64,000 nt of DNA. It comes from Phycisphaeraceae bacterium. GTDB lineage: Bacteria; Planctomycetota; Phycisphaerae; Phycisphaerales; Phycisphaeraceae. Below are positions 4,581-41,169 of this stretch, in pieces. Location of the stretch: positions 1 through 64,000 of the forward strand of contig JANQFR010000018.1 in the NCBI GenBank assembly GCA_028277745.1, given 5' to 3'. The notes under the pieces are model-generated. The model searched no databases. It saw only the letters and a program-made list of their open reading frames with translations, and had not been told where the DNA came from. Position numbers and translations under genes: made by a program. Positions within the stretch are counted from its first letter, which is position 1; the number at the start of each line of letters is the position of its first letter.

Positions 4581-5416
4581 TCCTGCTCCTCGGCCAACCG
4601 GCGGTAATACCGCTCGGTCAGGGTGCGGTACACCGGGCTGAAACGCTCGTTGAGGCCCTCGGACAGCTCGTCGCGCAGCCGCGGGGGCAGGCTGCCCCAC
4701 TGGTCGCGCAGCTCCTCCATCGAGGGTCCTTCGCCGTTTTCGACGTTGATGTTGTCGACCGAGTCACGGCCTGCGCCGCCGGCGGACGGCGTGCTGCCGC
4801 GGCTGGCCTGGGCGTTGGCGCTGGAGCCGTCCTGATTCTGGCCCTCGACCGACTCGGCCTGGTTGTCCTGGTTGCTGGCGCTGGACGGGCTGCCCGAGGA
4901 GCCGGACCCGCCGGACGAGCTGCTGCTGGACTGCTGCTGCTGTTTGGCGGCCTCGATGACCTGATCGAGCTTGCGGAGGATCGACTCCTGCATCCGCTGC
5001 GTCTCGATCCCTGAGTCGTACCCCCGGCCGAGCCGGATCGATACGCGGTCCATCTCGTTGACCGCCTGCTTGAACGCGTCACCCGCCCGCCGGTTGTTTT
5101 CCAGCCGGTCGCGCACCGACGCCTCGATCTCCACCTGGACGCCCTCGGAGTTGGCCGGGCGATCCGCGTCGCCCGGTTCCGCCGGCTCAGACTCCGCAGG
5201 CCCGGGGGTCAGGTCCAGCAGGTCGTCCAGCGTGGGCTGGTCGTCGGCGTGGACGACCGGCGTGGCGACCAGGATGACGGCGCCGATGAGGAAAAACGGC
5301 GTCCACAACAGCCGAGGCCCGCGAACCCGGCCCTGCGGGCCGGCGCTAAACGGTGCGGGATTGGGTCTTTTCAGCTCCATCTGCCATCTACCATCTGCCA
5401 TCCCCCTTCGTATCAC
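4577..5416 (-). CDS. Secreted low-complexity coiled-coil protein of the MoxR cluster
   Basis: 279 aa. The GTG at 5416 shares GTGA with the DUF4175 stop and has GGAGGA 9 bases upstream. The first 35 codons run through two unrelated dispersed repeats (M-A-D-G-R-W-Q-M and P-F-S-A-G-P-Q-G-R) before a normal signal peptide (L-L-W-T-P-F-F-L-I-G-A-V-I-L-V-A-T-P-V-V-H-A). The mature part has a charged helical stretch (residues 95-155), a Gln/Ser/Gly/Asn-rich linker (about 158-225) and a C-terminal helical segment with R-D-x-W-G-x-L-P-P-R-L-R near residue 240. That segment resembles the end of planctomycete DUF4175-neighbour proteins. Probably works with the adjacent DUF4175 protein. A later start just before the signal peptide cannot be excluded. 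Confidence 0.72.
   Translation of the reverse strand: MIRRGMADGRWQMELKRPNPAPFSAGPQGRVRGPRLLWTPFFLIGAVILVATPVVHADDQPTLDDLLDLTPGPAESEPAEPGDADRPANSEGVQVEIEASVRDRLENNRRAGDAFKQAVNEMDRVSIRLGRGYDSGIETQRMQESILRKLDQVIEAAKQQQQSSSSSSGGSGSSGSPSSASNQDNQAESVEGQNQDGSSANAQASRGSTPSAGGAGRDSVDNINVENGEGPSMEELRDQWGSLPPRLRDELSEGLNERFSPVYRTLTERYYRRLAEEQE
5326..5353 (-). repeat. Palindromic repeat family 3 (coding copy)
   Basis: CGTTTAGCGCCGGCCC/GGGCCGG-type hairpin repeat, also at 41142, 44841 and 58359. Here it lies inside an open reading frame and encodes P-F-S-A-G-P-Q-G-R near the protein N-terminus. Confidence 0.75.
5377..5403. repeat. Family 1 repeat (GGCAGAT units), short copy
   Basis: Three to four units of (A)TGGCAGATGG/TAGATGG, the arm sequence of the large hairpins at 17835 and 18941. 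This copy forms the M-A-D-G-R-W-Q-M codons at the start of the gene at 4577-5416. Confidence 0.7.
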
Positions 5417-8400
5417 TGCGGCGTCTCCTCCTGGGGCAACGCGGCCGGCTGCATCGCTTTCTCCATGTTTTCGACCATCTGGACGCCAAGCTGCGACAAC
5501 TCGCGCTGCTGGGCGGACAGCTCGGACAGCCGGCGGCGGCGGGTCTCGGCCGCGGGGCCCGACTCGTCCAGGCCGCGGGTCGCTTCGTACACGTCCTGCT
5601 GAATACTACGCAGCAACTTCAGCTCGGCCACGGGCGGCACGACCTGCGGCGGCGGGCCGCCCCCGCCGCCCCCGCCCCCGCCCTGCTCGCCAGCGAACTC
5701 CGACGGCTCCGCGTCCTCCTCCAACGCCGCCGCCATCTCCCGCAGCAGACGCGACGCCCGCGCCTGCTCGGCCAGCACCGACTCATCCGCCCGGCCGCGC
5801 CGCAGCTGCGACACCGCCCGCGACAAGCCCTCGTCCAGCCAACGGTGGATCCGCGTGAACACCAGCGTCTGGTTCACCTTCGCCGACAGCTTCATCGCCT
5901 CGGCCCGGACCTCTTCCTCCTCACCCGCGACCGCGATCAGCTGCGCCCGGCCCGGACGCGTCACCACGCCCGCCTCGACCACCGCCGCCGCCCGGTCGCT
6001 CAGGTCGTCCTGGCGCTCGGCCAGCTCCAGGTATTGGCGCTGCAGCTCCTCGCGCTGCTCCTGGGCCTGGTCCCGCTCTTCCTGCTCGGCCTGCTGACGC
6101 ACCAGCTCCAAGGCCTCGGCCAGCGACTCAATCGCCTTGCCCTCCGCCAGGCGCGCCGGCTGCAGGGCGCTGTCGCGCAGGGCGAGCACGGCGTCGGCCT
6201 GATGGTCAACCGCCCGGGCGAGCACCTCGGCGACGGGCTGGGTCTGCTCCGACGCCCGCGCGGTCTGCTCGGCCGCCATCGTGCCCCGGCGGATCGCGGC
6301 CTGCCCGGGCTCCAGCACCGACACGTCGGGCGCCTCCTCCAGCAACGCCGCGTGGGCCCGCTGCCGCTCCAAAAGCTGCGCGATCGCCTGGATCAACTCC
6401 TGAAGCCGGCGGCGGACCATCTGCTGGACCCGCTGCTCCTGCTGGTCGAGCTCGCGCAGCATCTGCTGCATCGTGTCCATCGCGTTGGCCTGCTGCTGGC
6501 CGGCCTGGGAGAGCTGGTTCTGCTGGGCGGATTCGCCGGCCTGGTCCATCTGCTGGCTCAGGCCCTGGCGCTGGGCGATCGCCGCCGCCTCGGCCAGCGC
6601 CTCGGCCGCGGCGCGCTCGCGGTCGCTGCCGCCGGGCTGGTTGAGCGCCTCGGCGGTCGCCTGCATCTGCCGGACCGCCGACTGCGCCTGGTCGCTCAGC
6701 TCCGCCTGCCGCCGGGCCAGCTCGTCGAGGGCGTCCTGCAGCTCCTGGGGCAGGTCGGCGCGGTCCTGCCCGACGGTCTGGGGCAGCAGCTCGCGCGTGT
6801 CCTGGGCCAGCCGGCCCTGCTGGGTCTGGAGCTGGCGCAGTTGAAGCTGGAGGGTCAGCGCATCGCGTCCCTGGTCGAGCAGCTCGGTCAGCTCGCGCAT
6901 CGCGTCGCCGACCTCGGCCTGGCTCTGCCGGGCCTCGGCCGCCTGACGCTTGCGGGCCTCGTCCTCGGCCTGTCGGGCCGCGTCGTCCAGCCGCTCCTGG
7001 GCCCGGTCGCTGGCGTCCTGGGCCTCCTGCACCAGCCGGGCGGCCTCGTTCATAACCTGATCCAGCGCGGGCTCGTCCAGGCGGTTGGACGCGGCGCGCT
7101 GCTGCAGGCGTTCGAGCAGCTGGGCCTGCGATTCCAGGCGGGACGAGAGCTGGGCCTGCTGCCCGGCGGCGGCGGCGGGGTCGAGCTCGGCGAGCTGACG
7201 CTGGGTCTGCTCCAGCCGGATCGCCTGCTGCCGCAGGGCCGCCAGCTCGGCACGCAGCTGCCCGATCAGGGTGGTTTCGTCGATGATCCGAAGCCGGCGC
7301 GGGGGCGAGAGCACCGGGTCGTGGGTCAGGCCGTCGAGCTCGTAAACGTCCCGGGCCGCGGCGACCAGGGTGACCAACTGGCCCGGCTGCAGGTCCAGCG
7401 GGGCGAGGTCGAACGTCGCCGACGCGGTCAGCATCGCCCGCCGCTGGGCGGTCTCGGCCAGGCGGAGCGTGAGCGTGTTCTGGGCCGACCCCGACGGCGC
7501 GGGGTTGGGGACCTCGGCGTCGAGGCTCAGCTCCGCCAGGCCGACGTCGTCCTGACCCAGGGCCTCGACCTCGATGACGGCGGACGCGAGCACCGACTCG
7601 TCGGCCGAGGGCTTGACGATCGACACGGTCGGGGGCTTGTCGGGCGTGGCTTCGATGCGGTAGAGCCGGTCCGACAGGTTCGCCAGCCCGTGCTCGTCGG
7701 TGAGCCGGACCAGGGTGTCGACGGTGTCGCGCAGGCCGAACGAGGCGGTGAGGGTGGTCGGCCCGGTGCGTTCGACGGCGGCGGCGGCCAGCCCGGGCAG
7801 CGCGACGGCGGCGGCCTCGTCGGGGATGGGCTTGTTCAGCTCGACGGTCAGCGTCACCACCGACCCGGGCCAGGCGGCGGCGGTCGCGACCGGGGTGGTC
7901 TGCTCGTGCAGCGCAACCGTCTGTTCGCCGATCAGGTCGGCGGCGTAGCCGGGCGGGCGGATCGCGGCGGTGATGCCGGTGACCGCCGGGCGCGCGACCA
8001 GCTCAAGGTGCTGGGGTGGGGTCTGGGCGTCGCCCGCCTTGAAGTAGAACTCCACGTCGGCGGCGGCGTCGCCCGAGACGGCTCGCGCCACGCCTGGGGG
8101 CAGCTCGATCAGCCGCTCGAAGAGGCCCACGCCCTGGTCGTTCATGAGCGCCTCCCGCCACGGGCCGGGGGCGGCGCCTTGCGGGGTGACGCGGTAATAG
8201 ACCCAGACCCGCATGCCGTGGTGATAGCCCTGAGACACGTTGGCCGCCAGCTTGAGCGGCGCGTCGATCGCCCAGACCGGCTGGGTCATCCGGGAGTGGA
8301 CGGCGGTGCGTTGGGGCCACTGCGCATCGCCCAGGGGCATCAGCCAGCGCGCCGCGGCGGTCCGCGTGGCGGTGGGCGACGCCGCGACCGCGGCGCTGAC

Positions 8401-8880
8401 CAGGATCAGCACCCCCACCATTACCGCGAGCAGGCGCGCGGTGCGCGAGGGGTCGATCAGCCGCATCAGGGACACGCCCGGCAGCCGGTCCTGGACGCGG
8501 CGGATCGTCTCGGTCGCCATCGTCGCGGTCCGCCGGGGGTCGCGGTACTGCTCGGCGTGCTCGCTGAACTCGACCGCCGACGCCAGGGCCCCCGCCAGGT
8601 GCGGGTACATCCGCTCGGCCCGCAGCGCCAGCTCGCCCAGGCTCGGCCAGAACGCCGACGCCCGCCGCAGCCGGGTCCACAGCCACGTCACCGCCGCCGC
8701 CGCCAGCCCCACCCCGATCACCAGGCGCAGCCACCCCGGCAGCCGCAGCGCGTAATCCACCAACGCCAGCGCCAGCGCCGAGGCCAGCACCACCGACCAC
8801 CACTGCATCAGCCGCTGGGCCACGAGCATCCACCGCCCGGTCCGCCGCACGTGGTCGAGTTGTCGGGTCACATCCTGCAC
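5413..8880 (-). CDS. DUF4175-type giant coiled-coil membrane protein
   Basis: 1155 aa. Two N-terminal transmembrane helices (about 28-46 and 51-69) and a third near 145-168 are followed by an extracytoplasmic beta-rich region (170-460, including the R-P-P-G-Y segment typical of these proteins). A very long Gln/Glu/Arg/Ala-rich coiled coil spans about 520-1050. Near residue 1075 a run of nine Gly precedes P-P-P-Q-V-V-P-P, then a final helix. This matches the DUF4175 family found in MoxR/VWA clusters of Planctomycetota. It probably spans the periplasm as a scaffold; no catalytic motif is visible. The start is GTG at 8880. The downstream gene overlaps by 4 bases; upstream neighbours do not belong to the usual cluster. 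Confidence 0.8.
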   Translation of the reverse strand: MQDVTRQLDHVRRTGRWMLVAQRLMQWWSVVLASALALALVDYALRLPGWLRLVIGVGLAAAAVTWLWTRLRRASAFWPSLGELALRAERMYPHLAGALASAVEFSEHAEQYRDPRRTATMATETIRRVQDRLPGVSLMRLIDPSRTARLLAVMVGVLILVSAAVAASPTATRTAAARWLMPLGDAQWPQRTAVHSRMTQPVWAIDAPLKLAANVSQGYHHGMRVWVYYRVTPQGAAPGPWREALMNDQGVGLFERLIELPPGVARAVSGDAAADVEFYFKAGDAQTPPQHLELVARPAVTGITAAIRPPGYAADLIGEQTVALHEQTTPVATAAAWPGSVVTLTVELNKPIPDEAAAVALPGLAAAAVERTGPTTLTASFGLRDTVDTLVRLTDEHGLANLSDRLYRIEATPDKPPTVSIVKPSADESVLASAVIEVEALGQDDVGLAELSLDAEVPNPAPSGSAQNTLTLRLAETAQRRAMLTASATFDLAPLDLQPGQLVTLVAAARDVYELDGLTHDPVLSPPRRLRIIDETTLIGQLRAELAALRQQAIRLEQTQRQLAELDPAAAAGQQAQLSSRLESQAQLLERLQQRAASNRLDEPALDQVMNEAARLVQEAQDASDRAQERLDDAARQAEDEARKRQAAEARQSQAEVGDAMRELTELLDQGRDALTLQLQLRQLQTQQGRLAQDTRELLPQTVGQDRADLPQELQDALDELARRQAELSDQAQSAVRQMQATAEALNQPGGSDRERAAAEALAEAAAIAQRQGLSQQMDQAGESAQQNQLSQAGQQQANAMDTMQQMLRELDQQEQRVQQMVRRRLQELIQAIAQLLERQRAHAALLEEAPDVSVLEPGQAAIRRGTMAAEQTARASEQTQPVAEVLARAVDHQADAVLALRDSALQPARLAEGKAIESLAEALELVRQQAEQEERDQAQEQREELQRQYLELAERQDDLSDRAAAVVEAGVVTRPGRAQLIAVAGEEEEVRAEAMKLSAKVNQTLVFTRIHRWLDEGLSRAVSQLRRGRADESVLAEQARASRLLREMAAALEEDAEPSEFAGEQGGGGGGGGGPPPQVVPPVAELKLLRSIQQDVYEATRGLDESGPAAETRRRRLSELSAQQRELSQLGVQMVENMEKAMQPAALPQEETPQ

Positions 8881-13073: not shown

Positions 13074-15503
13074 TCACACCAGGCGGATCACCTTGCGCAC
13101 GATCCATTCGGCGGTCAGCAGCACCAGCAGGATCACCAGCACGGCCGGGGCGTGCCACAGCGGCTCACGCGCGTCGTTAGGGGTCTTGACCGCGCGGTTG
13201 GGCACGATCCGCGGCAGGGTCGCCAGCTCGTCGATCGGCACGACCTGGCCGCCGGTCTGGTTCGCCAAAGCGATCAAGCGTTCGTGATCCGGGCGCGGCT
13301 CGCGCAGCTCGTCGTCGGGGGCCACGACCTCGAACCGGGCGGTGATGTCCAGGTCGTCCAGCGCCGGCTCGGTGACCCGCAGCACCAGGTCGCCGCTCAC
13401 CGCCGGGCGCCAAGTCGCGGCGTAGGTCAGGCGGGTCAGCTCCTCGCCGGCGAGCTCGGCGTCGCGCGCCGGGTCGCCGCCGACCGGGCGCAGCTCGATC
13501 TCATCGACCGCCAGCCGCCGCTCGTCGCCCCGCCGGGTGACGCTGACCGCCACGCTAGGCAGCTGCCGGGCGATGAGGGCCGCGTCCTCGGTGACCAGCT
13601 CGACCACGACCGTCTCATCGAGGCCGATCCGCCGGTGGCTCAGCTGCAGGCGGGCCCGGTCGCCCGACTGGGCCACGCGGTCCCGGCCGAGCATGCGGAC
13701 GAGCTGGATCCAGAACTGTTCGAAGTACAGCTCGCCCCGGCCGTACCGCCAGCGCCAGGTCTCGTCGGTGGCGACGTAGAGGCTCTGGCCCGCGCCGTAG
13801 CGCAGGCGCATGACCATGGGCGCAGTCTCGCCGTCGGGCTCGACCGCGAGCACGTCGGCCGTGGGCTTGAGCGGCCCCACGTCCTGCACCCACCGCAGCC
13901 GGGGCAGGTCCGCGGGCCAGTCGTCCGCACCCACCCCCGGGCCCTGCAGCCGCAGCACGCGCAGCTGCTCCGCCAGCGCGGTGGGCTCCACGTCCGCCCC
14001 GCCGTCCATGCCCGGCAACACCCCCACGCTCGCCGGCCGCCTCATCGGCAGCAGGTCCGCCAGCGGCGTCGCGTCGTACGACAGCGGCGTCGACCGCTCG
14101 CCCCCGATCCACAGCAGCCCCGCCCCGCGCGACGCCACGTGGTCCCGGATCAACGCGATCTGCTTCGCCGTGAAATAGTCCATCGGCACGTCGCCCAGGA
14201 TGATCACGTCGTACTGGTCCATCTCCTGGGTCGTGCGCGGCGGGCGGGTGATCGGCACGTCGCCCTCCTGCACGAAGTTGCGGTCCGCGCTGAGCAGCAG
14301 CGTGCTGCTCGAGATCGACGCCTCGCGCAGCAGCATGTTCTTGAGGTAGCGGTACTCCCACCGCGGGTAGCCCTCGACATACAGCACCCGGATCGGCCGG
14401 TCGATCAGGTCGACGGCGAACCCCCGGCGGTTGTTGACGGTGATCAGCTCGTCCCGGCCGTCGGGCGCGTCGTAGCTCACGCGCGCCTCCCACTGCGCAC
14501 GGCCGACCAGCGACGACCGGCCGGTGAGCGTCACCTCGTCCCCGAACCCCACGCCCGCCTCGACGAGCGTGGTCTGGTCGACCACCTCGCCGGTGACCGT
14601 GTCGACCAACTCGATGCGCACGCGCGACGGGTCCGGGTCGTCATCGGCCCCGCCGACACGCTGCACGGTCACGCTCACGGGCACGATGTCGTTGATGAAC
14701 GCCTGGCGCGGCGCGTCGACCTCGGCGACCGACAGGTCCAGCGGCAGCTGAGCCGAGCCCAGCGGGACCGTGAACACGCTGACCGCCTGCTGCTGGAGCC
14801 GGCGCAGCAGCTGCGGGCCGGTCGCCTGCGGGCTGCGGCCGTCGGTGATGAGCACCACCCCGGCGACCGGCCGGCCCGCGGCGGCGTCGAGCGCCTGCTC
14901 GATCGCGGTGCGCAGCGACGTCGACGGCGCCGACGCCGGCTCCCACGCCTCACGCCCCGGCGGCGCGATCTCGAACGCCTGCGCCCCGAAACCGAACCAC
15001 GCCACCCGACGGTCGGCGCCCATCGCCTCGGGGTCGAACACGTCCGACTGCGACGTCAGCGCCGCGCGCATGGCCTCGTCCCGGCTCACCGGCGACCCGC
15101 CCTCCATCACGTCCTCCACCCCCATCGACGCGCTGCGGTCGACCAGCACCAGCAACAGGTCCGGCTCGACCTGCTCGTCGGGCTTGATCAGCACCGGCCC
15201 GGCGAGCAGCGCGGCGACCAGCAGGATCGTCACCGCACGCACCGCCGCCAACGTCAGCCGCACGCCGCGCGGCCCGATCAGCCCGCTGTAGCTCCACCCC
15301 GCGTACCCCGCCGCCGCCAGCACGATCAGCGCCCACACATACGCCGGCAGCGGGTAACGCCAGCCCAGCGACACCCCCTCATCTCCGAAGCTCAGGTCCC
15401 GCAGCCCGAACGCCCCGTCCAGCCACGACGCCGACGCTGGCGCCGCGGCCGTCAGCACGGTTAACAGGATGCCGCCCAAAAGCATCTTCATCTTCAGCAT
15501 CAC
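13074..15503 (-). CDS. Membrane VWA / glutamine-amidotransferase-like protein of the MoxR cluster
   Basis: 809 aa. A signal-like helix, then two transmembrane helices (about 50-70 and 85-108) precede a von Willebrand A domain with MIDAS motif V-D-R-S-A-S-M near residue 124 and the later V-V-L-I-T-D-G-R-S segment. A central region holds a class-I glutamine-amidotransferase-like fold (V-L-Y-V-E-G-Y-P-R-W-E-Y, Y-D-V-I-I-L-G-D-V, L-W-I-G-G-E-R-S-T) that lacks an obvious catalytic Cys. A C-terminal helix (A-V-L-V-I-L-L-V-L-L-T-A) anchors it again. Start GTG at 15503 overlaps the upstream stop (GTGA); ATG at 15500 is an alternative. Such proteins are thought to be remodelled by the MoxR ATPase. Confidence 0.85.
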   Translation of the reverse strand: MMLKMKMLLGGILLTVLTAAAPASASWLDGAFGLRDLSFGDEGVSLGWRYPLPAYVWALIVLAAAGYAGWSYSGLIGPRGVRLTLAAVRAVTILLVAALLAGPVLIKPDEQVEPDLLLVLVDRSASMGVEDVMEGGSPVSRDEAMRAALTSQSDVFDPEAMGADRRVAWFGFGAQAFEIAPPGREAWEPASAPSTSLRTAIEQALDAAAGRPVAGVVLITDGRSPQATGPQLLRRLQQQAVSVFTVPLGSAQLPLDLSVAEVDAPRQAFINDIVPVSVTVQRVGGADDDPDPSRVRIELVDTVTGEVVDQTTLVEAGVGFGDEVTLTGRSSLVGRAQWEARVSYDAPDGRDELITVNNRRGFAVDLIDRPIRVLYVEGYPRWEYRYLKNMLLREASISSSTLLLSADRNFVQEGDVPITRPPRTTQEMDQYDVIILGDVPMDYFTAKQIALIRDHVASRGAGLLWIGGERSTPLSYDATPLADLLPMRRPASVGVLPGMDGGADVEPTALAEQLRVLRLQGPGVGADDWPADLPRLRWVQDVGPLKPTADVLAVEPDGETAPMVMRLRYGAGQSLYVATDETWRWRYGRGELYFEQFWIQLVRMLGRDRVAQSGDRARLQLSHRRIGLDETVVVELVTEDAALIARQLPSVAVSVTRRGDERRLAVDEIELRPVGGDPARDAELAGEELTRLTYAATWRPAVSGDLVLRVTEPALDDLDITARFEVVAPDDELREPRPDHERLIALANQTGGQVVPIDELATLPRIVPNRAVKTPNDAREPLWHAPAVLVILLVLLTAEWIVRKVIRLV

Positions 15504-17824
15504 GCCGCCCCCTTCCGGTCGGCGTCCGAGTCGCGCAGCGGCTCATCGTGACGCAGGTGACGCACCGTGTTGAGGATCCGCTGGGTCCAGGTGCGGCGTT
15601 CGGCGGCCTTGGCGTGGCTCATGACCCGCGCCAGCCAGGTCTCCAGCAGCAGCAGCGCCATCGCGGCGCACAAGAGCGGCCAGCCCAGGGGCGTGCCCGC
15701 GTCGGCGCGGGACAGGACCGCCGCGGGCTGGTCCGCCTCCAGGACCTCCCACGGGCCCAGCCCGTCCAGCCAGGCCGCGAGCCGGGCCGCGTCGGCGGTC
15801 TGGGTGTCGCCCGCGTCGGCGTCCACGTTCACCGCGAGGCGCAGCCCCGGCGACTCGGCGGCGCCGTACACGCCCGGCTCCTCGATCGGCTCCTGCACGC
15901 CCACGCTCAGCGCCCCGCCCGACCCCCCGTCCGCCCAGCCGGGCGCGAGGACCCGGGTCAACAGCGACACGCCCTCCCACGCCCGGCCCAGCCGCGGCCG
16001 ATGGCCCGCCAGCGACTCGCCCGCCTCCCGGCCCGGGGCCGAGCCGAGCAGGCTCCGCAGCGACTCGTGCAGCAGCGGGACGAACAGCGGCTTGGTCATC
16101 AGGTTCGTCCAGGTCGCGTCCAATGCCGTGCCCAGCAGCAGCGCCGCGCCGTCTTCAACATAGGTGGCCGCCAGCAGCACGCCGCCGTCGGCCACGCCCT
16201 CCAGCCGCAGCCACGCCGCGTCCGGCACGCTCGCGATCGGCAGCCGCCGGACCACGCGCACCGGGCGCAGCAGGTCCGCCCAGTCCGCCGCCAGCACCGC
16301 CAGCGCCTCGGGGGGCGGCGCCTCGGCGTCGAGGGACCACGCCGGCTCGTCGACGCCCGGCTCCAGCACGTCCATCCCCACGCGCCACGACACCCCCAGG
16401 GCGCCGACCATCGCCCGGGTCCAGGTCGCGGTCGTCTCGACCGCCGGGGCGAACACCCACACCAGCCCGCCGGCGCGCACGAACGCGCCCAGGTCGGCCC
16501 ACGCCGTGTCCGGCAGCAGGTCGGGGCGGACGATCATCACCGCGTCCAGCTCCGCCAGGGCCCGGGCGCTCACGTCGGCGGGCAGCATCCGGCTGACGCG
16601 CATGGCACCGTTGGCGCCCGCCTCCGCGCCCGGCTGCAGGGCCAGCCGGAGCCAGCCCCCGGCGTTGAGCCCCCCGCCCGTCGCGGCGCCAGCCGACTCA
16701 TCCACCACCCCGACCCGAAGCCGGCTGCGGACCGAGACCACCGCGGTGCGCTCGTTGTCCGCCGCCAGCGCGTCGTCGCCCTCGAGCCGGGCGCGTAGGA
16801 GCAGGGTCCGCCCCTCTTCGCCGCCGACGACCCCGTCGAACGCGACCGGCACGTCCAGGTTCACGCTGGCGACCGACTGCCCCGCGCCGAGGCGCGGCCG
16901 ACGGGTCGCGGTCGCCAGCGTCTTGCCCGCGGCGTCGAGCACCGCGACCTCGACCGCCGCCGCGCGCTCGTCCGACGCCCCGCCGAACCGCCGCAGCCGC
17001 ACCTGCACGGGGATCGTCGCCGACGCATCGTCCTGCGCAAGCACCATCCGCCGGCGGGGGGCGACCGACTCGATCTGCACGTTGTCGCTCGACGTCGCGG
17101 GCCGCACCGCCAGCACCCGCGCCCGCTCACCCAGGCCGGCGAGGGCGTCGTCCATCGGCTCGTCGAGGTAGGGCGCCGAGCGGGGGAAGTCGCTCAGCAG
17201 AACCACCACGCCGTCGCCGGGCGACACGCGGTCGCGGTCGAGGCTTGCGCGGACCGCCTCGAGGGCCGCGGGCAGCGTGCTGGGGCCGTAGCCGGGCCGC
17301 ATGCGGTCCAGGGCCTGGAGGACCTGATCGCGGTCGAGCCGTGGGCCGGTGAGCGCGGCCGCGTCGGGCCGGGCGCCACGATAGAGGGTCACGGTGTCGC
17401 CCGCGTCCAGGGCCTCGATCACGGATCGGGCGGTGGCCTTGAGCCGGTCGAACCGGCTCTGCCCGTCGGCGTCGTCGGCGCGGCTGGAGAGGCTGTCGTC
17501 CAGCACGAGGTGGACCGACCGGCCGGCGCCCGGGCCGAGCCCGCCGGTGATCGCGCCCCGCACGATCGGCCCGGCCAAGGCCAGGCCCAGCACCGCCACG
17601 AGCAGGCACCGCACCAGCAGCAGCAGCCACTGCTCGAACCGCAGCCGCTGCTTGTGCCGGCGGTACGCCTCGAGCAGGAACCGCATCGCCCCCCACGCCT
17701 CGCGCTTCCGCCGCAGCCGGCTCAGCAGGTGGATCGCGATCGGGATCGACACCGCCGCCGCCCCCGCCGCCGCCAGCCACGGCGCGGTGAACAACGAAGC
17801 GACCTGGGCGAGCAGGAGCGTCAT
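15500..17824 (-). CDS. BatA-like membrane protein with VWA domain
   Basis: 774 aa from the ATG at 17824. The reading frame stays open 31 codons further into the family 1 hairpin, but the BatA N-terminal double-transmembrane motif (L-F-x-x-P-W-L-A-A-A-G-A-A-A-V-S-I-P-I, then L-L-S-R-L-R-R-K-R) starts right after this Met, so 17824 is preferred. A second helix (L-L-L-L-V-R-C-L-L-V-A-V-L-G-L-A-L) precedes a VWA-like domain with D-D-S-L-S-S as degenerate MIDAS. The long remainder is a beta-rich and GATase-like region ending in a TM helix (L-L-C-A-A-M-A-L-L-L-L-E-T-W-L). Belongs to the MoxR/DUF58 operon; overlaps the next gene by 4 bases. Confidence 0.85.
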   Translation of the reverse strand: MTLLLAQVASLFTAPWLAAAGAAAVSIPIAIHLLSRLRRKREAWGAMRFLLEAYRRHKQRLRFEQWLLLLVRCLLVAVLGLALAGPIVRGAITGGLGPGAGRSVHLVLDDSLSSRADDADGQSRFDRLKATARSVIEALDAGDTVTLYRGARPDAAALTGPRLDRDQVLQALDRMRPGYGPSTLPAALEAVRASLDRDRVSPGDGVVVLLSDFPRSAPYLDEPMDDALAGLGERARVLAVRPATSSDNVQIESVAPRRRMVLAQDDASATIPVQVRLRRFGGASDERAAAVEVAVLDAAGKTLATATRRPRLGAGQSVASVNLDVPVAFDGVVGGEEGRTLLLRARLEGDDALAADNERTAVVSVRSRLRVGVVDESAGAATGGGLNAGGWLRLALQPGAEAGANGAMRVSRMLPADVSARALAELDAVMIVRPDLLPDTAWADLGAFVRAGGLVWVFAPAVETTATWTRAMVGALGVSWRVGMDVLEPGVDEPAWSLDAEAPPPEALAVLAADWADLLRPVRVVRRLPIASVPDAAWLRLEGVADGGVLLAATYVEDGAALLLGTALDATWTNLMTKPLFVPLLHESLRSLLGSAPGREAGESLAGHRPRLGRAWEGVSLLTRVLAPGWADGGSGGALSVGVQEPIEEPGVYGAAESPGLRLAVNVDADAGDTQTADAARLAAWLDGLGPWEVLEADQPAAVLSRADAGTPLGWPLLCAAMALLLLETWLARVMSHAKAAERRTWTQRILNTVRHLRHDEPLRDSDADRKGAA

Positions 17825-17834
17825 GGGCGAGGAA

Positions 17835-17932
17835 GATGGCAGATGTGAGATGGCAGATGGCAGATGGAAAAGCAGTGGAGCGTCCCGCTGCCCTTCCTTC
17901 CATCTGCCATCTGCCATCTACCATCTGCCATA
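17835..17932. repeat. Family 1 large hairpin, copy b
   Basis: About 98 bases filling the gap between the DUF58 stop and the BatA-like start. Two arms of tandem GGCAGAT units, about 34 bases each, pair around the core GCAGTGGAGCGTCCCGCTGC. The core is the reverse complement of that in copy c, so the two copies are inverted around the DUF58 gene. Confidence 0.85.
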
Positions 17933-17937
17933 AAAAA

Positions 17938-18906
17938 TCATCCTTTCGCGATACCGGCGGCGCGCTGGGCCATGAAGTGGCTCAGGGGCGGGCCGAGGGG
18001 CTCGGCGGTGTTGACCAGCAGGTAATCAAAACGGTACTTGCGCGTGATCTGTTCGATCGCCCCAAGGTGCTGCTGAAGCGCGGCGAGGTACCCGCTGCGC
18101 AGCGCGGCCGGGTCGAGCTGGAGCCGGCCCTCGGCCTCCATGCCGATGAACTCCGAGGGCGAGCGGAACGGGAAGGTCAGCTCCGCGGGGTCGAGCACCT
18201 GCAGCACGATCAGGTCGTGTCGGCGGAAGTGCAGCCGGGCCAGGCCCCGCTCCAGGGCGGCCGGGTCGTCGAACAGATCGGAGATGAGCACGATCAGCGA
18301 CCGCTGATTGAGCTTGGCGACCACCGCGTCGAACACCGCGGCCAAGTCGGTGCGGTGGGGCACGTTCTCGGCGGAGTGGGCCAAGCCCTGGGCGGCCTGG
18401 CTCGGGTCGCTCAGCTCGGCCGTGCTCAGGGCCTCGACCAAGGTGCGCCAGTGGCCCTGGCGGTTGCTCAGGCGGGTGGCTTGGCGGAGCTGGTCGTCGA
18501 ACAGCGACAGGGAGACGCGGTCCTGCTGCTTGATCGCGAGGTACCCCATCGCCGCGGCGAGGCAGGCGGCGTGGTCGAACTTGCGCCAGCCGTTGCTCGC
18601 GTACGCCATCGAGCCGGACAGGTCGACGAGGACGGCCAGGTCGAGGTTGGTTTCTTTCTGGTACTGCTTGAGGTAGAGCTTGTCGGTCTTGCCGTAGACC
18701 TTCCAGTCAAGGAACCGGGTGTCGTCGCCGGGGGCGTACTGGCGGTGTTGGGCGAACTCGACGCTGACGCCCTGCATGGGCGAGCGGTGCATGCCCTGCA
18801 TGAGCCCCTCGACGATCATGCGGGCGCGCAGGTCGATGCCGGCGAGCGTCGCGAGCGTCTGCGGGTCGAGGTAGTCCGTGGTGGTGGGCGACGTGGGGTG
18901 GGCGAT
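17938..18906 (-). CDS. DUF58 domain protein (probable non-canonical start)
   Basis: DUF58 protein with the family block Y-A-P-G-D-D-T-R-F-L-D-W-K-V-Y-G-K-T-D and a VWA-like V-L-V-D-L-S-G-S-M. The first ordinary start is the ATG at 18819 (293 aa), but the frame continues upstream without ATG, GTG or TTG. The extension encodes D-Y-L-D-P-Q-T-L-A-T-L-A-G-I-D-L-R-A-R, which is the usual DUF58 N-terminus. An AGGAG Shine-Dalgarno (18921-18917) sits 10 bases before ATC at 18906, so I extend to that codon (322 aa). The frame is closed by TGA at 18927. AUC initiation, or loss of the original start when the neighbouring repeat inserted, are both possible. In MoxR operons DUF58 proteins work with the ATPase and membrane VWA proteins. 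Confidence 0.8.
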   Translation of the reverse strand: MAHPTSPTTTDYLDPQTLATLAGIDLRARMIVEGLMQGMHRSPMQGVSVEFAQHRQYAPGDDTRFLDWKVYGKTDKLYLKQYQKETNLDLAVLVDLSGSMAYASNGWRKFDHAACLAAAMGYLAIKQQDRVSLSLFDDQLRQATRLSNRQGHWRTLVEALSTAELSDPSQAAQGLAHSAENVPHRTDLAAVFDAVVAKLNQRSLIVLISDLFDDPAALERGLARLHFRRHDLIVLQVLDPAELTFPFRSPSEFIGMEAEGRLQLDPAALRSGYLAALQQHLGAIEQITRKYRFDYLLVNTAEPLGPPLSHFMAQRAAGIAKG

Positions 18907-18940
18907 AGCCGATAGGCTCCTGATTCAACGAGGGGGGCCT

Positions 18941-19050
18941 GATGGCAGATGGATGATGGCAGATGGCAGATGGAAAGAGGCGCAGCGGGACGCTCCACTG
19001 CTTCTCCATCTGCCATCTGCCATCTCACATCTGCCATTCATCATCTGCCA
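18941..19050. repeat. Family 1 large hairpin, copy c
   Basis: About 110 bases abutting the moxR stop codon. GGCAGAT-unit arms flank the core GCAGCGGGACGCTCCACTGC, the reverse complement of the core in copy b. It lies 20 bases from the Shine-Dalgarno of the DUF58 gene. Confidence 0.85.
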
Positions 19051-20100
19051 TTACCTTAAGACGGCTTCCGCCTGCCGGTCGGCGGCGGCGTCGGGCTGGA
19101 TGGTCTTGAGCAGGTCGTCGATGATGTCGTCGGTGCTCACGCCGTCGGCCTCGGCGCTGAAGTTGGGGATCAGCCGGTGACGCAGCACCGGCGGCGCGAC
19201 CGCGGCGATGTCCTCGGGGGTGACGTGCGTGCGGCGGTTCATCAACGCGCGGGCCTTGGCGGCGAGGATCAGGTTCTGGCTGGCGCGGGGGCCCGCGCCC
19301 CAGTTGAGGTACCGCTGGATGAACTCGGGACGGGCGTCCGCCTCGCCCCGCTCGGGCGGACGCGTCGCCCGCACCAGGCGCAGGGCGTACCGCGTCACGT
19401 GCTCGGCCACGGGCACGTCGCGCACCATGTCCTGGATCTGCATCACCTGCTCAGCGCTGACCACCGGGTCGAGCGTGATCCGCGTACGCGTGGTCGTGCG
19501 GTTGATGATCTCCAGCTCGTCGGCCTCGGTCGGGTAGCCGACGCGGATCATGAACATGAACCGGTCGAGCTGGGCCTCGGGCAGGGGGTAGGTGCCCTCC
19601 TGCTCGATGGGGTTCTGGGTCGCAAGGACGAAGAAGGGCTGGGGCAGCGCGTGCCGCATCCCGCCGGCGGTGACGTGGTGCTCCTGCATGGCCTCGAGCA
19701 GGGCCGCCTGGGTCTTGGGGGGCGTGCGGTTGATCTCGTCGGCGAGCAGGACGTTGGCGAAGACCGGGCCCTTGACGAACCGCAGGGCGCGTTGGCCGGT
19801 GGACTTGTTCTCCTCGATGACCTCGGTGCCGGTGATGTCGGAGGGCATGAGGTCGGGGGTGAACTGGATGCGGTTGAACTGGAGCGACAGGGCCTTCGCG
19901 ACGGAGGAGACCAGCAGGGTCTTGGCCAGGCCCGGCACGCCGATGAGCAGGGCGTGGCCGCGGGTGAAGAGGGCGATGAAGACCTGCTCGATAACCTGTT
20001 CCTGGCCCACCACGGCCTTGCCGACCTGCTCGCGGAGGTCGGCGGTGGCCTGCTGGATGTGTTCGATGAGCTGCTCGGGGTCGTGGCCGGCGTCGGACAT
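19051..20100 (-). CDS. MoxR family AAA+ ATPase
   Basis: 349 aa from the ATG at 20100, preceded by AAGGAG at good spacing; a longer frame upstream is not needed. Walker A G-V-P-G-L-A-K-T at 54-61, Walker B V-L-L-A-D-E-I-N-R at 117-125, sensor 1 V-L-A-T-Q-N-P-I-E-Q-E-G-T, and the arginine-rich P-E-A-Q-L-D-R-F-M-F segment. All AAA+ elements of MoxR are intact. First gene of the operon that continues with DUF58, BatA-like and VWA genes. MoxR ATPases are chaperone-like, inserting metal or activating VWA-containing partners. A TATACT box on the minus strand at 20162-20157 could be its -10, with a poor -35. Confidence 0.93.
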   Translation of the reverse strand: MSDAGHDPEQLIEHIQQATADLREQVGKAVVGQEQVIEQVFIALFTRGHALLIGVPGLAKTLLVSSVAKALSLQFNRIQFTPDLMPSDITGTEVIEENKSTGQRALRFVKGPVFANVLLADEINRTPPKTQAALLEAMQEHHVTAGGMRHALPQPFFVLATQNPIEQEGTYPLPEAQLDRFMFMIRVGYPTEADELEIINRTTTRTRITLDPVVSAEQVMQIQDMVRDVPVAEHVTRYALRLVRATRPPERGEADARPEFIQRYLNWGAGPRASQNLILAAKARALMNRRTHVTPEDIAAVAPPVLRHRLIPNFSAEADGVSTDDIIDDLLKTIQPDAAADRQAEAVLR

Positions 20101-20190
20101 ACAAGCTCCTTCGTGCTGCCGCGGGGGACGAGGGCGAGGGGGGGCGGGCACGGTGAAGTATACCGGTCAGCGGGGGTCGCCCGCAGGGGG

Positions 20191-20222
20191 ATGGCGGATG
20201 TGAGATGGCAGATGGCGGATGG
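20191..20222. repeat. Family 1 repeat, half copy d
   Basis: ATGGCGGATGTGAGATGGCA and GATGGCGGATGG: one arm of the family 1 hairpin, directly joined to a family 2 element. It lies in the moxR/mutM divergent gap. Confidence 0.7.
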
Positions 20223-20223
20223 A

Positions 20224-20278
20224 CTTAGCCGGGCCGCTACGCGGCCCTGGACCAGGCGGGCGTAGCCCGCCGGCTAGG
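20224..20278. repeat. Family 2 two-hairpin repeat, copy b
   Basis: 55 bases with the same two inner hairpins as copies at 10053 and 21426. It sits just upstream of mutM; copy c sits on the far side of mutM and the putative origin, in the same orientation. Confidence 0.85.
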
Positions 20279-20296
20279 GCGGATAAGATGCCTGCT

Positions 20297-33708: not shown

Positions 33709-33740
33709 GGCGTTAAGGCGTTAAGGCGTTAAGGCGTTAG
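33709..33740 (+). repeat. (GGCGTTAA)4 tandem repeat
   Basis: Four 8-base units, the last ending in G, 8 bases before the regulator start codon. Copy-number change would alter leader length without touching the frame. It may set translation or be an operator. Confidence 0.75.
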
Positions 33741-41141: not shown

Positions 41142-41169
41142 CGTTTAGCGCCGGCCCGCAGGGCCGGGC
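41142..41169. repeat. Family 3 repeat, copy b
   Basis: CGTTTAGCGCCGGCCCGCAG, then GGCCGGGC; non-coding copy 5 bases past the esterase stop, giving a hairpin CCGGCCC-GCA-GGGCCGG. Confidence 0.8.

Follow-up and report, generated by a model that had tools for sequence, protein, structure and literature searches.

The two inverted hairpins that flank a DUF58 gene between moxR and a BatA-like gene probably belong to a hairpin-cassette family as members without an ORF; their transcribed stem would be cut by RNase III, and the family would have spread through the genome, with local copying at this site. Arms of this family appear to consist of a word of 7 nt, sometimes 8 nt, repeated in inverted arrays, and its full form would carry between them a gene for S23p, the four-helix-bundle protein of 23S rRNA intervening sequences (IVSs). 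The window, meaning the whole 64,000-nt stretch of DNA analyzed here, belongs to C99, one of the 99 contigs of a 5.1-Mb genome, and from it alone the membership of the arms in a genome-wide family that brackets S23p genes elsewhere is invisible.

Two inverted copies of one hairpin flank the DUF58 gene

The locus comprises, all on the minus strand, a moxR-type AAA ATPase gene (PF07726, 19051..20100), the DUF58 gene (PF01882, 17938..18819), and a BatA-like gene (PF07584 plus VWA, 15500..17824). Hairpin element A (17836..17931, plus strand) lies in the DUF58-BatA gap, with arms at 17836-17867 and 17900-17931 and a core at 17872-17891, while element B (18942..19037, minus strand) lies in the moxR-DUF58 gap, with arms at 18942-18973 and 19006-19037 and a core at 18982-19001. 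The original prediction of inverted copies around DUF58 was borne out, the two being 94% complementary and spaced 1010 nt apart, and their size, given as about 100 bases, is corrected to about 96 nt, each arm comprising 4-5 heptads. When A is read on the plus strand and B on the minus strand, both open with the same arm detail, ATGGCAGATGTGAGATGG, so the two are genuine, oppositely oriented copies of a single element. The BatA-facing arm of A is the one with the TGTGA interruption, and on the coding (minus) strand the array of A begins 6 nt past the DUF58 stop codon. Beside B, an extra outer heptad (19038..19053, minus strand; TAATGGCAGATG on that strand) reaches into the moxR stop codon.

Both elements were also said to fill their gaps completely. 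This nearly holds for the DUF58-BatA gap (17825-17937), which A almost fills; for B it requires a DUF58 start ahead of the first ATG. The conserved DUF58 N-terminus, TDYLDPQTLATLAGIDLRARM, precedes the first ATG/GTG/TTG in the same frame (window 18820-18925); the true start is thus probably at about 18900-18925, and DUF58 may use a rare start codon.

The 20-base core, GCAGTGGAGCGTCCCGCTGC, is exact in A and, as its reverse complement, in B, as predicted. A search of the 5.12-Mb genome returned no other match with fewer than three mismatches, and the three sites with three mismatches equal the level of the reversed control. A mobile core was accordingly rejected, since GCAGTGGAGCGTCCCGCTGC is confined to this pair. 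The outcome named beforehand as refuting the prediction, a core confined to this place, was thus obtained for the core, but it does not extend to the arms, which occur genome-wide.

Within the window, the arm sequence GATGGCAGATGGCAGATG has 19 matches at up to three mismatches versus 0.05 expected. The half copies announced at 20191 and 5377 were recovered as solitary heptad arrays at 20190..20223 (plus strand), between moxR and mutM and followed by a G+C-rich double palindrome at 20225-20280, and at 5376..5409 (minus strand), 10 nt past the stop codon of the gene at 5413-8880 (minus strand). Downstream of the latter lies a REP-like palindrome, TTTAGCGCCGGCCCGCAGGGCCGG (5327..5350, minus strand), one of 72 copies in the genome. 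Palindromes of this kind and their relatives were observed in the window at 41144, 44843, 58361, 5350 (minus strand), and 20225-20280, one of them beginning 7 nt past a stop codon. In a divergent gap at 33709-33739, the 8-mer GGCGTTAA is present four times.

Predicted RNA folds of A and B on both strands range from -70 to -73 kcal/mol (z from -8 to -13), with stems of about 34 bp that stand, on the sense strand, directly behind stop codons. The predicted fold gives both elements the long stem of complementary ends that characterizes S23p IVSs. A search of Rfam with the elements yielded no match, so a known Rfam RNA was discarded, and no U-run or terminator-like site follows the hairpins, which eliminated intrinsic terminators.

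The arms belong to a genome-wide family

Searching the genome with GATGGCAGATGGCAGATGG at up to two mismatches gave 172 matches and none with the reversed control. We counted 66 array ends at roughly 55 sites and read 46 stretches around them, which show a founder-like left end, AATGGCAGATG(TGA)GATGGCAGATGG, as well as solitary arrays and head-to-head pairs enclosing different cores. Arms measure about 33 nt and are built of heptads, with 3 to 12 units per array. Each of the 12 close pairs is head-to-head, with the GATGG arm first and the CCATC arm second, and a pattern search for full hairpins agrees with this orientation. Among the stretches examined, seven sites of this genome carry an exact match to the 26-nt arm that includes the TGTGA interruption, and those from other genomes carry none. 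Bracketing of DUF58 as such is an ordinary case of a genome-wide element, and the general pattern is the interesting part.

Copies appear to cluster in the genome only weakly above chance. By eye, no target-site duplication was seen in the element flanks, and no transposase matching the elements was found. Long GATGGCA arrays of 10-12 units were also observed at contig ends (L099 at the end of C64, L089 at the end of C39, and L077/L094 at the starts of C20 and C49), one contig-end array lying directly behind sequence that resembles a tRNA 3' end. Contigs C39 and C64 share identical sequence past their terminal array, indicating that a longer repeat begins there.

According to gene calls from a simple home-made gene finder, each of the 24 sense arrays located after a gene begins no more than 20 nt past the stop codon (median, 10 nt), and arrays adjoining gene starts lie farther away (median, 45 nt). 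Like the published tandem heptamers of the GGGAATC/TAACTGA type, GATGGCA arrays are thus genome-wide and intergenic, with convergent pairs and a position near sense stop codons. The same stop-codon preference has been published for the Xanthomonas and Nostoc heptamers, on the sense strand within 50 bp (PMC4692102).

Most S23p genes examined are framed by 7-8-mer arms

On contig C28 (stretch L082), two GATGGCA-family arms about 430 nt apart enclose an ORF whose product matches the profiles TIGR02436 (4e-23) and PF05635 (7e-17), has the solved relative 2rld, and is a four-helix-bundle 23S rRNA intervening-sequence protein. The exact 26-nt arm of element A also serves this cassette; the window copies lack the S23p ORF and hold only the 20-nt core. 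Six S23p genes were found in this genome, and at least one was present in 28 of the 41 genomes of the relatives search, this genome included. At the search sensitivity used, phage records contained no S23p relative.

To score arms, the upstream flank of each gene was locally aligned with the reverse complement of its downstream flank, with a threshold of 12.5, fixed on the first set (own genome and relatives) at the 99th percentile of its mismatched pairs; the unchanged test was then run on a second set, from 19 genomes representing other phyla. When the flanks took in the final 75 nt of each ORF, 68 of 89 S23p genes passed in the first set and 53 of 64 in the second, whose genomes were chosen for having GATGGCA arrays and are no random bacterial sample, the S23p genes themselves not being chosen by their flanks. 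Far fewer mismatched flank pairs (22/821 and 18/602, respectively) and other genes (3/87 and 1/54) did so. Overall, arm pairs were found at 121 of 153 S23p genes versus 3 of 128 other genes flanked on each side by a gap of 50 nt or more (Fisher p 1e-44), these three being the window DUF58 and moxR genes and one GxxExxY nuclease gene. Detectable arms are missing at about 20% of S23p genes.

The arm period in the 121 cassettes is 7 in 93 and 8 in 23, and the upstream arm has more G than C in 98. Arm words differ among cassettes, with both arms matching within any one of them. This is also the case in the present genome, where five of the six S23p genes pass with differing words and only one uses GATGGCA.

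Several S23p cassettes were seen inside essential-gene operons, directly past the stop codon of the upstream gene, including groES-groEL (G034/G038), atpH-atpA (G018/G024/G029), and the loci L281/L304/L312. Several GxxExxY/PDDEXK_3 nuclease genes were likewise observed between inverted repeats of words of about 8 nt, such as CACAGAGG, CGCGAAGG, and CACAGAGA (L245:4067-4402 in G003, L434, L436, L438, and L151). Five of the eight nuclease genes examined score above the arm threshold and the other three score 9.0-11.0, so this element class may have the nuclease as a second cargo.

Orthologous gaps in relatives carry similar elements with other words

In relative G014, the orthologous moxR-DUF58 gap holds a full S23p cassette whose arms read GATGTTA/TAACATC. 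Among the ten relatives whose DUF58-BatA gap is at least 60 nt, six have a 7-8-mer inverted repeat there, with words that include ACGCCAAG, GGAAAAT, and ATTTTGG, and a seventh has a different palindrome. The moxR-DUF58-BatA gaps are thus recurrent element sites, with words differing by genus.

At an isomerase locus shared by G009, G011, G014, and G019, arms score 17.5-30.5 against their own partner and 7-15 in cross comparisons. A single clade is not rejected (p-AU 0.67), and the free tree lacks that grouping; turnover of the word inside orthologous cassettes is thus suggestive only. The fabF locus looks like independent insertions.

A probable hairpin-cassette origin and its alternatives

Because members of the family follow immediately on a stop codon, the transcript of the upstream gene should include them, and their RNA should form a long stem, which RNase III would most likely cut, by analogy with S23p IVSs in 23S rRNA. 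Such a cut would make the insertion tolerable and would split the message into its moxR, DUF58, and BatA parts. The recurrence of one arm sequence at many sites argues that the family has spread within the genome, and ORF-less copies would probably have spread in trans. To our knowledge, S23p is not a known transposase, and we know of no function or spreading route assigned to it since the discovery of 23S rRNA intervening sequences. As the core of A and B has no other occurrence, one of them probably arose as a local inverted copy of the other, an event that palindromic arms would make easy. The arms could also be a by-product of a site preference common to S23p genes and heptamer arrays.

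Polymerase slippage offers an unlikely alternative, in which the hairpins are simple heptanucleotide repeats made palindromic by template switching and S23p is unrelated. Among the 5-11-nt repeats of many bacteria, heptamers are the most frequent, and slippage has been proposed as their source (PMC4679880, PMC4692102); the variable array length seen here would fit. However, dispersed copies keep the non-repetitive detail AATGGCAGATGTGAGATGGCAGATGG, with the TGTGA interruption at the same place, which argues for descent from one founder rather than independent slippage. Neither the uniform head-to-head pairing nor the excess of arm pairs at S23p genes fits this explanation. Telomerase-like addition of heptads at breaks was considered because all pairs are head-to-head, and the genome holds one reverse transcriptase gene; the conserved interruption and the link to S23p fit a founder element better.

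We regard it as improbable that the hairpins are selected regulatory 3'-end structures, acting as mRNA stabilizers or attenuators between moxR, DUF58, and BatA. The stable predicted stems, their position right after stop codons, and the repeats with other words in six of the ten relatives would suit such a role, but the same elements adjoin unrelated genes genome-wide, many relatives lack a gap altogether, and a terminator tail is absent. The tuning of expression along the operon by mRNA folding, as originally suggested, stays plausible given the stems behind sense stop codons, and an effect of the hairpins on the message may be a by-product of the cassettes.

Movement as REP/REPIN-type palindromes by a RAYT (Y1) transposase seems very doubtful. 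The genome does have one Y1_Tnp gene (L227, C40:14763-15026), and the REP-like palindrome often follows an array in a fixed orientation (16 same, 2 opposite). Nevertheless, the sequences bordering the Y1 gene are copies of another palindrome, TAGCGGGCGAGCTTGCTCGCCCG, rather than heptads, and the arms lack a GTAG/CGTC tag and are longer than a REP, so we rejected this origin. Finally, inversion of DUF58, which the original prediction had allowed and which 96-nt inverted repeats 1 kb apart could mediate by recombination, has a negligible likelihood: DUF58 lies on one strand with moxR and BatA, in constant order, in every relative where neighbors were found, no adjoining gene resembles an invertase (Bat-type genes, mutM, and dnaA examined), and the arms are not specific to this locus.

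Beyond the hairpin-cassette origin of A and B, we tentatively propose, at a little under even chances, that S23p genes are the cargo of bacteria-wide heptamer-armed hairpins residing mainly behind stop codons in operons (groES-groEL, atpH-atpA, fatty-acid genes, moxR-DUF58), that the 23S IVS is a special case, and that the orphan heptamers of Xanthomonas, Nostoc, and Beggiatoaceae are ORF-less remnants. Arm words would then turn over fast with the two arms remaining complementary, and either a copying mechanism or strong selection on the RNA stem would be required for this; the GxxExxY (PD-(D/E)XK) nuclease may be a second cargo with similar 8-mer arms. Such a pattern would also caution against taking these hairpins for operon-specific regulators.

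Comparison with known systems

Like MITEs, the elements are short, have terminal inverted repeats and no ORF, and coexist with a fuller relative in the same genome; unlike in MITEs, the fuller relative encodes S23p rather than a recognized transposase, and inspection by eye showed no clear target duplication. GTAG/CGTC-tagged REPs and REPINs with RAYTs are also dispersed, oppositely paired palindromes located mostly downstream of genes (PMC3733652), whereas the elements here are untagged, have heptad arms, and differ from the palindrome at the Y1 gene.

The closest published parallel to the full form is the 23S IVS of Coxiella, which has an S23p ORF between complementary ends, with a 28-bp terminal stem, tandem GACAGAT heptamers at the 5' end whose number varies by strain, and an RNase III cut at the first repeat (PMC4990558). 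Further points in common are a length of about 430 nt and a long stem. In contrast to that IVS, which is excised from rRNA by RNase III, the elements here lie behind stop codons between protein genes (moxR, DUF58, BatA) and outside any rRNA gene, the window copies lack the S23p ORF that their C28 sister with the same arms has, and processing by RNase III would be their presumed fate.

The GGGAATC and GGGGA(C/T)T heptamers of Xanthomonas and Nostoc are genome-wide and intergenic, with 70-75 convergent inverted pairs in Xanthomonas, but use other words, were explained through G-quadruplexes, and were not linked to S23p (PMC4692102). TAACTGA heptamers of Beggiatoaceae, Cyanobacteria, and Bacteroidetes are also genome-wide and intergenic; these form mostly direct arrays before start codons, with one inverted pair only, and were proposed as a translational signal (PMC4679880). 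In our data, an S23p gene of relative G008 lies between arms of the Nostoc GGGGATT word, and one in Scytonema (L398) between arms of the TAACTGA word. Within the open-access literature, the scope of our search, we found no paper joining S23p IVSs with heptamer repeats. Both published orphan heptamers and the Coxiella IVS fit the cassette pattern. If S23p genes are generally framed by heptamer arms and positioned after stop codons, then 23S IVSs, genome-wide heptamers, and dispersed hairpins in gene gaps become one testable question.
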